IMG/VR virus record: IMGVR_UViG_3300026518_000055
Coordinates: 1 to 25,476 of that record
Length of the DNA: 25,476 nucleotides
Direction: 5' to 3' (one strand)
DNA from: a virus
This document shows, piece by piece, positions 1,668 to 6,864 of this stretch. Positions within the stretch are counted from its first letter, which is position 1. Each line of letters begins with the position of its first letter. The translations under genes were made by a program, and so were the position numbers. The notes below the pieces were generated by a model that was not told where the DNA came from, made no database searches, and saw nothing but the letters and a program-made list of their open reading frames with translations.

Positions 1668-2324
1668 TTATGGCATTTTCTTACGCAAATCTTTTAAGAC
1701 CGCCAGTACCTCAGTCTCTGAATTTGCTAAAATGGAAGGGTATACAGATTCGTTAAGGGCCTTGAGCACCACCTGAGCGCCATCCACAAAATATTGTCTA
1801 ACAATAACTTGGCCGTCATGACGTACAAGAACAAACTTTTCGTTAGCAGGTGTTGCTCCAGCCTCAAAAATGGCTACATCGCCTTTATAAAGATTGTATT
1901 GATGCCCCGTAGGCTTAATCATCGCATCAATATGGGGTAATTCGACTACAAAAAGTCTATCTAAATTTTCAATTCTTTCTTCATCAACTTGAACTTCCAA
2001 CTTGTCCTCGCAATTCTCTATTCCGTGAATTAAGCTGGCGATTGTACATAGATTGATCAGTTCTGAATACCGTATTTTTGCTACAAGTTTATTTTTTTGG
2101 GGATCAAATGATTTTGTTGTGAGTGTTAAGCCTGTAAGAAGAAAATTTTTGTCAACATTAAGGGCAAAGGCAATTTCCTCTATGTTACGAGGCACTCTCT
2201 TTGTATATCTTTCGAAGCTACTTACTGCTTGCCGAGAAATGTTGAGCTTTTTTGCTAGCTCCTCCTGCGTAAGACGGAGGGATTCTCTGGCTTCTTTAAT
2301 ACGGTCGCCGATATTTTGACTCAT
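1668..2324 (-). CDS. CI/LexA-like phage repressor lacking the autocleavage dyad
   Basis: A 218-residue repressor with an N-terminal XRE helix-turn-helix (about residues 7-60; recognition region TQEELAKKLNISRQAVSSFE) and a C-terminal S24-type dimerisation domain (about 120-218). The C-terminal domain aligns by eye with lambda CI: 'NSMTAPTG' corresponds to 'DAMIKPTG', and 'FTFKKL' to 'VIVRQY'. The nucleophilic Ser is therefore Ala134 and the catalytic Lys is Arg176. The linker also has no Ala-Gly or Cys-Gly bond. It should bind DNA and oligomerise but not self-cleave. No Shine-Dalgarno is visible, and a TATAAT lies 9 nt before the ATG, so the message may be leaderless like lambda PRM. It is divergent from the Cro-like gene. 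Confidence 0.87.
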   Translation of the reverse strand: MSQNIGDRIKEARESLRLTQEELAKKLNISRQAVSSFERYTKRVPRNIEEIAFALNVDKNFLLTGLTLTTKSFDPQKNKLVAKIRYSELINLCTIASLIHGIENCEDKLEVQVDEERIENLDRLFVVELPHIDAMIKPTGHQYNLYKGDVAIFEAGATPANEKFVLVRHDGQVIVRQYFVDGAQVVLKALNESVYPSILANSETEVLAVLKDLRKKMP

Positions 2325-4020: not shown

Positions 4021-4524
4021 TTAGCGGATAGGTTCTTTAACATTTTTATTGACGATATTTTTAATTAGCTTGATTGTATCTCTATATGAGGTTCTTTGAT
4101 TGGCGCGATTAATTAATACATTCTCATTGCCACATTTGAAACATGCGGCATTATCGTGCGGTTTTCCACCGAAGGATAATTGAGAAAAATTGATTGGATG
4201 CTTACACTTAACGTCGCCACAATAAGCGTCTAATGTATTTGGGTCCCAATATACATTGTTTACTTTGATTAAAGTGTGTTCTAAATAATATTCGTGTTTA
4301 GCTTCGCTGTACTTGCCGTAAAATAGTAATGCCCAGTATAGAAAAATAAAAATAAGTAAAATGGTTGCGATAATCATGCCTGCCATAGATTTTTCCAAAT
4401 GAAAAGTGCCATAAATTTGAAATATTACTAAAAGAAAAGCTAAAGCAGCCGAACCTTTAAAGTTAGTGGTGTCAATTACGTTTAATGAAATTTTCAGCTT
4501 GCTTAAACTATTAATTTTTGTCAT
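4021..4524 (-). CDS. Two-TM membrane protein with a four-cysteine zinc-ribbon-like domain
   Basis: A 167-residue protein starting MTKINSLSK at 4524, with AAGG about 8-9 nt upstream. An open frame continues back to 4674 but would cross the promoter repeat and lacks a ribosome site, so I reject the longer form. Hydrophobic segments at about 25-41 and 48-69 anchor it. The C-terminal half has Cys102 and Cys107 (CGDVKC) plus Cys128 and Cys131 (CFKC), a likely metal-binding ribbon. Promoter and leader are shared with the gene at 3115-3549, although the proteins differ after MTKI. The function is unrecognised and it may be a host-interaction moron. Confidence 0.65.
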   Translation of the reverse strand: MTKINSLSKLKISLNVIDTTNFKGSAALAFLLVIFQIYGTFHLEKSMAGMIIATILLIFIFLYWALLFYGKYSEAKHEYYLEHTLIKVNNVYWDPNTLDAYCGDVKCKHPINFSQLSFGGKPHDNAACFKCGNENVLINRANQRTSYRDTIKLIKNIVNKNVKEPIR

Positions 4525-4557
4525 AGCATTTGCCTTATATTGTAGTTGTGGTGACTG

Positions 4558-4592
4558 GCAGTATATCAGGGTGAGTGCTATGACAAAAGTTA
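4558..4592. repeat. 35-bp direct repeat, copy 2
   Basis: Identical to 3584-3618. It holds the minus-strand promoter of the gene starting at 4524. Confidence 0.9.
4560..4586 (-). promoter_or_regulatory. Moron promoter 3
   Basis: Minus strand: TTGTCA (4581-4586), a 15-bp spacer, then extended -10 TGATATACT (TATACT at 4560-4565). The -10 box ends 36 nt before the ATG at 4524. A perfect palindrome at 4594-4609 lies just upstream of the -35 box. Confidence 0.6.
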
Positions 4593-4593
4593 G

Positions 4594-4609
4594 TGTTCTA
4601 CGTAGAACA
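4594..4609. promoter_or_regulatory. 16-bp perfect palindrome upstream of moron promoter 3
   Basis: TGTTCTACGTAGAACA is a perfect 16-bp palindrome 8 bp upstream of the -35 box, a common place for an activator or repressor site. No equivalent exists upstream of the other two moron promoters. Confidence 0.5.
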
Positions 4610-4753
4610 AAAGGTTTTCTATGACTTCTCAATTCTTTTAACTTTGATTGCTTGGGATTACAAAGGGAAGTCATAGAAATTATTTTTAAAGCTCTTTTCG
4701 CGTGTAGGTTTTTATTGTTGTTTCCTTGGGCGCGTGAGAGGGGCTTTAAAAAT

Positions 4754-4827
4754 AAGCGAGTGGCTCAAATGGTAGAGTTGTGAGTACGATGTACTGTCGG
4801 TTGCTGGTTCGAGTCCTGCGTCGCTTA
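4754..4827 (+). tRNA. tRNA-like element, degenerate (anticodon not assignable)
   Basis: Canonical D-arm (T8, GCTC / A14 ... GG ... A21 / GAGT) and T-arm (GGTTCGAGTCC) sequences are spaced as in a tRNA, with an acceptor helix AAGCGA/TCGCTT. The anticodon stem does not form a normal 5-bp helix in any register. Candidate loops give GAT or ACG, each with mismatches. There are mismatches at 7:66 and 51:63, and no CCA is encoded. The acceptor helix extends outward to a perfect 12-bp inverted repeat (4748-4759 with 4821-4832). It may be a decayed tRNA or a tRNA-like RNA structure. Confidence 0.5.
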
Positions 4828-4832
4828 TTTTT

Positions 4833-4909
4833 CAGGGTGTAGCTCAGTTTGGGAGAGTACTCGGTTTGGAACTGAGTGGTCGTAGGTTCAAATCCTTCCG
4901 CCCTGACCA
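4833..4909 (+). tRNA. tRNA-Pro (anticodon UGG)
   Basis: A 77-nt tRNA with acceptor CAGGGTG/CGCCCTG, D-arm GCTC...GAGT, anticodon arm CTCGG-TTTGGAA-CTGAG (anticodon TGG), T-loop TTCAAAT and encoded CCA. C1:G72 with A73 agrees with proline identity in bacteria. One T-stem mismatch (T50:T64) is present. It begins directly where the tRNA-like element's extended stem ends. The virion genes use CCA proline codons often, which this tRNA reads, so it may support late translation. Confidence 0.88.
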
Positions 4910-4954
4910 ATTTAAATGCTTTTAAAACAATAATAATAAACAGGGAGATGAGTG

Positions 4955-5812
4955 GTGAAGTATCAGGCTACTTTTATTAGCTCGGAAGAGTTTGAGATTT
5001 TAGCGGATGAGCCGCCAGAGTATTTTAAGTTGTACGCCTTTTTAAGAAGTCGTATGAACATTAAAACTAAAATTTCGGGTGTCGAATCTCGGTTTAATAC
5101 GCAGGCTTTTCGGGAGGTTTTGAGCGTGCCAGACCGGCGCGGAAGACACAAAAAGCATGAAAGTGAAAGTGCAAAAATTACGCCTAGGTCCATCCAACAA
5201 AAGCTAGATTACCTAGTTAAGATTGGCTTGATTCGTCGCCAAAAGAACTATGTGTTTGAGCATCTTTTGCCCATTATTCCGAAGCAACGGATTAGTCCAA
5301 TTAAAACTATGAGTGAACGAAGAGTGAACGATGAGTGCATGATGAGTGAACGCATGAGTGAACGTAAAAACAGCCCGCAGCCCTTGGATTCATTAGCTTC
5401 TTCAAAAATGAGTGAACGCATGAGTGAACGACGAGTGAACGATGAGTGCATGATGAGTGGTACACCTCATAGATATCAGATATCAGATATTAATTTAGAC
5501 ATAGATAAATCTATGTCTTGCTCAAAACCTGCGGTTTCTGAGCGAAAAAAAGTCAATTCTTTAATCAAAACAAAGTTTGAAGAATTCTGGTCTTTGTACC
5601 CACGCAAAGTTGGGAAAAAGAAGTGTGAGTCAAAGTTTGAATCTTTGGTTAGGCAGAAAATTGAATTTGCTGATGAGATTATTTCGGGCTTGAGTTCTCA
5701 GGTGGAAAATTTGAAGTCTAAAGAAGTCGAATATATTCCTCATCCCATCACTTGGCTCAACCAGGGCCGATGGGAGGACGAGATACCTGAAAAAGAAGAT
5801 TGGAGGTTGTAA
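4955..5812 (+). CDS. Phage replication initiator, lambda O-like organisation, containing the candidate origin
   Basis: A 285-residue protein with three parts. The N-terminal winged-helix region (about 1-115) ends 'ITPRSIQQKLDYLVKIGLI'. A low-complexity linker (about 118-170) is made of repeated MSER/RVNDECMM units. The C-terminal domain has 'FEEFWSLYPRKVGKKKCESK' and 'PHPITWLNQGRWEDE', a signature of phage initiator and primosomal proteins that contact helicase loaders. GTG codons at 4952 and 4955 are both possible. GGGAG sits 7 nt before 4955, which I prefer. The repetitive linker is encoded by iteron arrays, as in the lambda O gene. It heads the replication operon, followed by a second replication protein. 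Confidence 0.8.
   Translation: MKYQATFISSEEFEILADEPPEYFKLYAFLRSRMNIKTKISGVESRFNTQAFREVLSVPDRRGRHKKHESESAKITPRSIQQKLDYLVKIGLIRRQKNYVFEHLLPIIPKQRISPIKTMSERRVNDECMMSERMSERKNSPQPLDSLASSKMSERMSERRVNDECMMSGTPHRYQISDINLDIDKSMSCSKPAVSERKKVNSLIKTKFEEFWSLYPRKVGKKKCESKFESLVRQKIEFADEIISGLSSQVENLKSKEVEYIPHPITWLNQGRWEDEIPEKEDWRL
5311..5518. other. Candidate replication origin (iterons, AT-rich heptamers, palindrome)
   Basis: GAGTG-core iterons begin at 5311, 5322, 5333, 5344 and 5356, and again at 5410, 5422, 5433, 5444 and 5455, every 11-12 bp. Most are GAGTGAACG; those at 5333 and 5444 are GAGTGCAT and the last is GAGTGG. Downstream are three AGATAT(C/T) heptamers (5471-5491) and a 10-bp-arm inverted repeat with a 2-bp spacer (5497-5506 and 5509-5518). 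Iterons, an AT-rich element and a palindrome inside the initiator gene match the layout of lambda ori. Confidence 0.78.
5497..5518. repeat. Inverted repeat with 10-bp arms in the candidate origin
   Basis: AGACATAGAT and ATCTATGTCT are perfectly complementary arms separated by AA. The repeat borders the AT-rich heptamers of the origin and lies in the linker-coding part of the initiator gene. Confidence 0.8.
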
Positions 5813-5814
5813 TT

Positions 5815-6279
5815 GTGAATGATGTTTCAACGAAAAAAATAATTAAAAAAATTTTTGCCTACCATGGCATTCCTGAAAGCCAGGAATTGAACTCTGTGTG
5901 GCTGCATGATTTATCAGCCTTCTCGGCGGACAAGATTGAGCAAGCCTGGAATGAATGGCGAGGTATAGCGGATAACGATAAGCGAAAGCCAAAATCAATG
6001 GAGTTGATTCGAATCCTCAAGGCTCGATCAAACCCTACGGCGGTTTATGAAGAGAAGGAATCTAGAAAATTGAAACATGGCAGAAGCCCCGTAGAAGACG
6101 AGTTGATTCGAAGGCTAAAAGCGATGAATAAAAATAATCCCAACTTGATGAGCGAAATAAAAGACTGCGACAGCCCTAAAGAGAAAATTGCTATCTGCAC
6201 GGTCGCAGCTGGTCAGGGGCTTAATAGCAATTCCTCCATGGGTGGACTCATCAAAAATATTAATGCGAGAATTGGTTAA
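5815..6279 (+). CDS. Putative second replication protein (possible helicase-loader type)
   Basis: A 154-residue protein starting at GTG 5815, with GGAGG 8 nt upstream (5802-5806). An in-frame TTG at 5800 would lie inside that ribosome site. It overlaps nothing and follows the initiator stop by 2 nt, the position held by P or DnaC-like loaders in lambdoid phages. The N-terminal region (FAYHGIPESQELNSVWLHDL, then AWNEWRG and KPKSMELIRIL) is helical and resembles the N-terminal domain of G39P-type loader proteins. No Walker A ATPase motif is present. The loader role is inference from position and weak similarity. Confidence 0.6.
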   Translation: MNDVSTKKIIKKIFAYHGIPESQELNSVWLHDLSAFSADKIEQAWNEWRGIADNDKRKPKSMELIRILKARSNPTAVYEEKESRKLKHGRSPVEDELIRRLKAMNKNNPNLMSEIKDCDSPKEKIAICTVAAGQGLNSNSSMGGLIKNINARIG

Positions 6280-6509
6280 TGAAAAAAGCTAAATGCAAAA
6301 GCGATTTGCTGGAAGATATTGAAAAACTAATTGCCGATTACGCAACGTCGGTAATTCATGTTAGGCGCAAACAGTTTAAAAAATTACATCAGGAATTGTT
6401 CCCCCACAGTCGGGACGATTTGGATGAAAAATCACGCTTTGAACACTTGGGGCGCGTCATCCAAGTTTGGCCGCTTGATTCGGTTGAAGGTTCGCAAAGT
6501 GGGTACTAA
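6279..6509 (+). CDS. Small hypothetical protein in the replication operon
   Basis: A 76-residue charged protein (MKKAKCKSDLLEDIEKLIAD ... FKKLHQELFPHSRDDLDEKS). Its ATG overlaps the stop of the preceding gene (TAATG), and its 3' end overlaps the VRR-NUC gene by 11 nt. Predicted mostly helical with no recognised motif. Tight coupling suggests a replication or recombination accessory role. Confidence 0.55.
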   Translation: MKKAKCKSDLLEDIEKLIADYATSVIHVRRKQFKKLHQELFPHSRDDLDEKSRFEHLGRVIQVWPLDSVEGSQSGY

Positions 6510-6864
6510 AAATCTCACTGAAGACCAGATTCAGATGCAGCTTGTAGCTTGGGCGAGACTTCACAACACAATTGGGCCGTATTTGATACATATCCCGAAC
6601 GGTGGATACAGGAATCCACGAGAAGGGGCTAAATTTAAGCGTATGGGCGTTTTAAGAGGGGTAAGCGATATTTTCCTTGCTAAACCTCAAAACGGCCTTC
6701 ACGGGCTTTGGATCGAGCTTAAACGGCCTGGTGGAAAATTAACCAGTGACCAATACAACTGGATAAAGCTGATGTTGGCTCAAGGGTATGAGGCTAAAGT
6801 TTGTTATGGATTTGATGAGGCGAAAGATGTGATTTTGGAATATTTAAAAAATAAAGAGAGATAA
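6499..6864 (+). CDS. VRR-NUC domain nuclease
   Basis: A 121-residue single-domain VRR-NUC protein of the PD-(D/E)XK superfamily. Visible signature: early helix 'EDQIQMQLVAWAR', then 'IPNGG', then 'RGVSDIFL' (Asp57), then 'WIELKRPGGKLTSDQ' (Glu73, Lys75, Gln85). Standalone phage proteins of this type are structure-selective nucleases that can replace RusA-like Holliday junction resolvases in recombination and packaging. I place the start at GTG 6499, with GAAGG 8 nt upstream. A longer frame back to ATG 6358 would lie almost wholly inside the preceding gene and adds residues unlike the family. Confidence 0.85.
   Translation: MGTKNLTEDQIQMQLVAWARLHNTIGPYLIHIPNGGYRNPREGAKFKRMGVLRGVSDIFLAKPQNGLHGLWIELKRPGGKLTSDQYNWIKLMLAQGYEAKVCYGFDEAKDVILEYLKNKER

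Follow-up and report, generated by a model that had tools for sequence, protein, structure and literature searches.

Does the repeat-rich linker of a phage replication initiator gene hold the origin at which the encoded protein acts? The window analyzed here, 25,476 bases long, makes up an entire IMG/VR record. With a P22-like portal and coat, a terminase and an S24/CI-type repressor, it has temperate-phage content, and its source appears to be a temperate podovirus-like phage. The first-pass annotation had placed a lambda-like origin, composed of two phased iteron arrays, inside the initiator gene.

The initiator gene and its neighborhood

The genes and gene segments that bear on this question are:

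1668-2324, minus strand: S24/CI-type repressor
4952-5812, plus strand: replication initiator gene, 286 aa with a GTG start (phrog_270, phrog_13103, AlphaFold models)
5183-5221, plus strand: predicted recognition-helix codons, residues 78-90, within TPRSIQQKLDYLV (AF2 helices and covariation)
5809-6279, plus strand: gene after the initiator, about 156 aa (sole match phrog_10105, of unknown function, E 0.003)
6358-6864, plus strand: VRR-NUC nuclease/resolvase-like gene (PF08774, E 1.2e-10; phrog_5702; synteny)

The initiator, composed of an N-terminal winged helix, a disordered linker whose DNA holds the repeats, and a C-terminal domain (FEEFWSLYPRK...HPITWLNQGRW), matches phage families annotated as replication initiation/primosomal: phrog_270 (E 2.2e-21), phrog_9474 and phrog_9327. 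The C-terminal domain carries the FW-LYP...WLN-RW pattern of phrog_270, adopts a confident AlphaFold fold (pLDDT >90) and is 36-53% identical to dozens of viral C-terminal domains. The N-terminal winged helix matches phrog_13103 (E 1.5e-8) and, in the AF2 model, comprises helices at residues 11-17, 22-35, 50-58 and 78-90 and a wing hairpin at 94-98/101-104 (moderate pLDDT). Foldseek returned no match with the full model and weak winged-helix matches, none significant, with the N-terminal model; VIA-align of the latter reached Z of up to 7.1, in the non-specific range. A search by sequence for a solved structure of the initiator found none.

Relatives share the order cro/cII or S24 repressor, initiator, P-like loader and resolvase, and in Pseudomonas phage relatives a Holliday-junction resolvase follows O-P. 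The gene at 5809-6279 occupies the position of the helicase loader (P) in these relatives, yet is not recognizable as a loader, phrog_10105 being its one match; it may be a diverged helicase loader. A promoter and terminator scan of 4500-6000 found nothing above chance. The stretch at 4765-4830, directly upstream of a tRNA-Pro gene, has a T-arm resembling that of a tRNA (GCTGGTTCGAGTCCTGC) together with acceptor ends AAGCGA/TCGCTT; ARAGORN and Rfam make no tRNA call there, and it is perhaps a decayed tRNA or an attachment-site remnant.

Two iteron blocks in the linker DNA

The linker DNA and its 3' flank contain the following elements:

5311-5364, plus strand: iteron block 1, made up of five GAGTG(A/C)A(C/T)G units at steps of 11, 11, 11, 12 bp
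5365-5409, no strand: spacer between the iteron blocks, 45 bp, with a similar-sized gap family-wide
5410-5463, plus strand: iteron block 2, likewise of five units, with a degenerate one at 5455 in last place, at steps of 12, 11, 11, 11 bp
5464-5468, plus strand: ACCTC box separating block 2 from the melting region and conserved across the family
5469-5518, no strand: predicted DNA unwinding element, ranked third for instability among the distinct 50-bp sites of the whole record
5471-5491, plus strand: tandem heptamers AGATATC, AGATATC, AGATATT inside the unwinding element
5497-5518, no strand: palindrome AGACATAGAT-AA-ATCTATGTCT with 10-bp arms, at the 3' end of the unwinding element

All ten GAGTG cores lie exactly where the first-pass annotation had put them, at 5311, 5322, 5333, 5344 and 5356 and at 5410, 5422, 5433, 5444 and 5455. 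Measured steps of 11, 11, 11, 12 / 54 / 12, 11, 11, 11 bp agree with its claimed spacing of 11 or 12 bp, and its 45-bp separation is the distance between blocks, corresponding to 54 bp core to core. Seven units read GAGTGAACG, two (5333 and 5444) read GAGTGCATG, and the degenerate tenth, GAGTGGTAC, sits at the edge of the melting region. As the 11-12 bp steps slightly exceed 10.5 bp, the iterons would wind gently round the helix and not lie on one face. A search of the rest of the window for a second array of this core found none.

The repetition is kept at the DNA level

The encoded linker is repetitive, as had been claimed, with MSER and RVNDECMM recurring in the initiator, and this recurrence would suit a repeat that belongs to the protein, the DNA repetition being a by-product. 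The unit frames (2, 1, 0, 2, 2 / 2, 2, 1, 0, 2) nevertheless use all three frames: each 11-bp step moves the frame by one base, so that MSER, RVND and DECM all come from one DNA unit. Across 20,000 rounds of synonymous-codon shuffling of the initiator gene, the maximum reached was 8 GAGTG cores (10 observed), 5 copies of GAGTGAACG (7 observed) and 5 spacings of 11/12 bp (8 observed). Since no shuffle attains the observed cores, units or spacings, the repeat is kept as DNA, and the shuffles and the three frames together exclude chance and protein repetition as the source of the window array. The 11-bp periodicity of family linkers likewise exceeds that of synonymous shuffles: autocorrelation across 67 linkers lies above them at 11 bp (z 10.3), 23 bp (7.2) and 34 bp (4.7), with an excess that extends over 23-24 and 34-35 bp and a deficit at 20-21 and 29-33 bp. 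A protein-borne repeat is thus scarcely credible, and relatives present the opposite of the pattern named beforehand as refuting the origin reading, in which linker peptides are kept and the DNA repeat is scrambled.

GAGTG was also considered as a special universal core and rejected: with four copies at 11/12 bp in viral contigs as the measure, the composition-matched control GATGG matched more contigs (66 versus 50). Many GAGTG-scan matches in viral contigs fall in other phage initiator-like genes. Several other initiator-like types (L072, L092, L117, L118, L073, L076, L081, L083, L086 and L107) carry 11-bp linker arrays on either strand, so origin arrays of 11-bp period seem to be a general feature of phage initiators. 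Seven viral contigs (L085, L088, L105, L113, L074, L093 and L110) contain 11-bp GAGTG arrays, such as CTGAGTGGACG, with no long sense frame; several of these non-genic arrays end in GTGTTACTAGAT and are possible origins outside genes.

The ACCTC box and the predicted unwinding element

The three AGATAT(C/T) heptamers and the 10-bp-arm palindrome that had been listed are present within 5469-5518; the ACCTC box and the instability of this segment are additions to that list. The segment has a stability of -52.1 kcal/mol, against a window mean of -65.8 (sd 4.5), and its palindrome is one of two with such 10-bp arms in the window.

[CT]ACCTC occurs in 41 of 54 family linkers (expected 3.1; no more than 8 in any of 500 shuffles). 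Where the box is in frame, the proline codon beneath it is CCT in 40/40 cases, compared with 24% of all proline codons in family genes, and part of the box conservation could be protein, as 40 of the 41 boxes share one reading frame. The stretch 3' of the box in relatives has a median instability rank of 0.8% of the gene. Compared by eye, Pseudomonas-type CCGGTATCCGGTAATAAT and window CAGATATCAGATATTAAT are alike at 13 of 18 positions.

The layout recurs across the family

Among 68 distinct family linkers, 63 contain at least one step of 10-13 bp, and these steps number 2.38 per linker, compared with 0.17 once codons are shuffled; because these rows share ancestry, family P-values overstate independence. 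Two blocks with at least two copies each are present in 36 of 51 divergent linkers (sharing <25% of 9-mers), nearly all of which carry 11-13-bp iterons with differing cores. The gap between blocks clusters at 45, 55-57, 66-69, 78-79 and 90 bp, roughly multiples of 11.25, in copies that share ancestry and leave the period indistinguishable between 10.5 and 12. Family cores include GCCG(A/C)CA, CCCGACACA, (G)CAACC, GAGCAACA, AAGTGGGCA, AAGTGGTGA, GGTGGGGCC and GAACCCCA. Fourteen new members were fetched as a test after the layout rules had been written down: all 14 carry repeat arrays, nearly all in two blocks and one truncated, with a strict box in 9 and a variant box in 4.

The window has this family layout, with two blocks of 11-13-bp iterons, an ACCTC box and a melting region in the linker. 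The earlier suggestion of a different design is therefore right with respect to lambda, in that the iterons are short, head-to-tail, non-palindromic and in two blocks, and wrong if read as unique, the design being family-wide. Origins inside initiator genes are already known. In the literature searched, which left subscription papers mostly uncovered, we found no description of the two-block short-iteron layout with a box.

The two blocks of the window are closely similar, with 5309-5348 and 5420-5459 being 98% identical over 40 nt, as expected if block 2 were a recent functionless copy of block 1, made by slippage or duplication at an offset of 111 bp. Two blocks, 11-13-bp steps, a box and a melting region are nonetheless found again in dozens of relatives that have diverged and use other cores, which makes functionless duplication very improbable; duplication may still lie behind the making or homogenizing of the window's block copy.

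Covariation of the recognition helix and the iteron core

The recognition helix of the window initiator, TPRSIQQKL, has its nearest counterpart in SPRSVQNKL, found in Arthrobacter phages whose N-terminus is otherwise unrelated, and the Arthrobacter unit GGGGTG(A/C)ACG resembles the GAGTG(A/C)A(C/T)G of the window. Across 69 distinct C-terminal-domain initiators, at least three GTGMAYG copies are found in 4 of 6 with a PRS[IV]QxKL helix and in 0 of 63 without it (Fisher 1.7e-5), in a comparison built on two independent lineages, helix-directed sampling and a motif chosen post hoc.

Four Arthrobacter phage initiators with N at helix position 7 (L187, L200, L348 and the Andrew-type L350) have GGGGTG(A/C)AC iterons about 22 bp apart, and L349, with R in place of N (SPRSVQRKL), has GGGGTG(A/C)CA-like units, that is, GGGGTGMCA-like and not GGGGTGMAC. 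This N-to-R/A-to-C change among Arthrobacter phages would represent a natural specificity switch; it makes chemical sense for N or Q to pair with A and for R to pair with the G across from C.

In the gammaproteobacterial family, R at helix column 7 accompanies GMCA in 26 of 32 cases, compared with 1 of 11 for other residues, which go with GMA; the same link holds outside the Legionella-type set (5/6 versus 1/9, p 0.011, post hoc). Among the new members, each helix class keeps its own core, and the S class and one R member fit the helix-column rule. The SEKELRRAL and ATRKEVRYA classes misfit, leaving a one-residue rule that R means GMCA only partly right. The proposed check for covariation of iteron sequence with the N-terminal domain comes out in favor, as an association between helix and iteron, of which a simple one-residue rule captures only part.

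Origin reading and proposed mechanism

Given the initiator family match, DNA-level selection, the 3' melting region, family recurrence, covariation and synteny, it is highly likely that 5311-5518 is a phage replication origin embedded in the linker of its own initiator gene. The first-pass placement of the origin is well supported by the match to phage initiator proteins, by conservation of the repeat as DNA and by iterons that abut the melting region.

Plasmid iterons have a second role in autoregulation and copy-number control, and the repeats could serve mainly such a role, as an operator or in handcuffing, with the origin elsewhere; the gap between the two blocks would suit looping. We regard this as unlikely, since in the window, as in most relatives, block 2 adjoins a melting region, in the lambda order, and the window lacks a further GAGTG-core array. 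A promoter-like site was not found in or near the array on the coding strand, and the array is consequently not a classic operator.

For an origin at 5311-5518, we propose that the N-terminal winged helix, through its recognition helix TPRSIQQKLDYL, would bind each 11-bp unit in the same orientation, probably as one monomer per helical turn. The two blocks, separated by about 45-70 bp, would together carry one nucleoprotein complex in which the intervening DNA is bent or looped. The block beside the ACCTC box and AT-rich stretch would drive melting of 5469-5518, starting at 5469, and the distal block would stabilize or bend the complex; the C-terminal domain would then recruit the helicase or its loader.

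Distribution of the family and a probable link to LvrA

A whole-protein search of viral contigs and a plasmid search with the window N-terminus returned nothing, and a profile search of genome contigs returned one relative only. Relatives of the N-terminal domain are sparse in phage records and commoner in gammaproteobacterial genomes, being present in 7/391 genomes of one order, 10/369 of the class, 15/248 of one family and 100/143 of another. The window N-terminus is 34.7% identical to that of AUS531phi and 33% identical to that of L289, a member from G233; phage D14P has a relative as well.

The family with 100/143 is very probably Legionellaceae, judging by the best plasmid match (Legionella adelaidensis, 61.6%), a phage homologue annotated as "Legionella vir domain-containing protein" and an lvr-like gene order. 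This order comprises an XRE/S24 repressor, the initiator relative, a P-like loader (phrog_109, E about 1e-6) and CsrA, with the repressor, initiator relative, P-like loader and CsrA operon seen in L301, L304, L317 and L327. It matches the published lvrR-A-B-C order, in which lvrRABC is described as a regulatory module and not as replication genes, on islands said to be without a replication module (PMC3864950). The Legionella-type initiator relative is presumably lvrA, and the position of the family gene in an lvrRABC-like operon at these loci suggests that lvrA is an initiator with an internal origin. In the literature searched, with subscription papers mostly uncovered, neither an internal lvrA origin nor iterons of the LvrA-like family were found described.

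More broadly, we consider it fairly probable that the window belongs to a large unrecognized class of LvrA-like initiators of mobile elements with a linker origin, in which lvrA-lvrB form an O-P-like replication module and the recognition helix sets specificity; within this class, the residue at helix column 7 would switch the unit from A to C in some lineages. The layout marks family genes of unknown function as probable replication initiators and provides a sequence signature for origins in phages and integrative elements without annotated ones. Origin recognition becomes testable through dozens of naturally occurring initiator/iteron pairs of differing specificity, some of them one helix residue apart. 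Should the reading hold for LvrA, Legionella islands would turn out to have the replication module that they are reported to lack (PMC3864950), and their replication and copy number would become directly testable.

The C-terminal domain is associated with a second arrangement. Among 35 distinct linkers of C-terminal-domain relatives from viral contigs, several have iterons spaced either 11 bp or 21-23 bp apart, and the wider-spaced ones are often palindromic. As both spacings occur, a single C-terminal domain goes with two origin designs, one built of 11-bp head-to-tail units and the other of often palindromic units two turns apart. L223, L262, L274, L280 and L258 share this domain and carry 21-23-bp, often palindromic linker iterons, such as GCGCAAAATGCGC.

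Comparison with known systems

The likeness to lambda claimed for this origin holds for the layout, in which iterons abut the melting region, and not for the protein, which is not recognizably of the lambda O family. Pfam Phage_rep_O scores the initiator below threshold (E 0.083; 13.9 bits, cut-off 28.7) and is absent from the matches of an 11-member family scan; BLASTP of the initiator against lambda O returned nothing, and hhalign to the lambda O family was not significant (probability 0.8%, E 0.07), with an alignment that keeps the wHTH register. The Pfam and profile results do not support membership in the lambda O protein family.

When the same code was applied to lambda as a control, the least stable gene O 40-mer started 3 nt after annotated iteron 4, and the iteron frames were 0, 2, 2 and 1. 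As in lambda O, the window's ori lies in the initiator gene between the DNA-binding domain and the C-terminal part, with iterons in different frames and an AT-rich melting region directly 3' of the last one; a helicase-loader gene (phrog_109) comes next in the window's relatives. Lambda carries four 18-bp palindromic iterons, 20-24 bp apart and bound by dimeric O, of which the two beside the AT-rich tract suffice for replication in vitro, whereas Stx phages require additional distal iterons (PMC7466680). The window, in contrast, has ten non-palindromic 11-12-bp units in two blocks, plus the ACCTC box.

The initiators of Arthrobacter phages Kuleana, Andrew-type and Renna12 have a near-identical helix (SPRSVQNKL), a near-identical unit and a common C-terminal domain, but differ in an unrelated N-terminal remainder, units about 22 bp apart and a second 11-bp array (TTGAACCGTCC). 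RepA_N proteins (MDR/pSK1 RepA) and DnaD share a winged-helix N-terminus and match weakly in structure (4pta, 5kbj, 2v79; Z about 6), in a tied, non-specific range and with no sequence similarity found. RepA_N plasmids keep iterons in the rep gene. Phage P4 has two separated sets of short type I iterons at ori and crr, with a GGTGAAC-like core, kilobases apart and bound by the alpha protein, a parallel that serves as a lead only. The LvrA-like proteins of Legionella mobile islands (lvrRABC) and the Pseudomonas prophage proteins (phrog_13103/23635) share a homologous winged helix, two-block iterons, an ACCTC box and a melting region and differ in their cores (GCCG(A/C)CA, CAACC, AAGTGGGCA and others). 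Judged by sequence and origin layout, the window initiator is a member of this phrog_13103/LvrA-like wHTH family.
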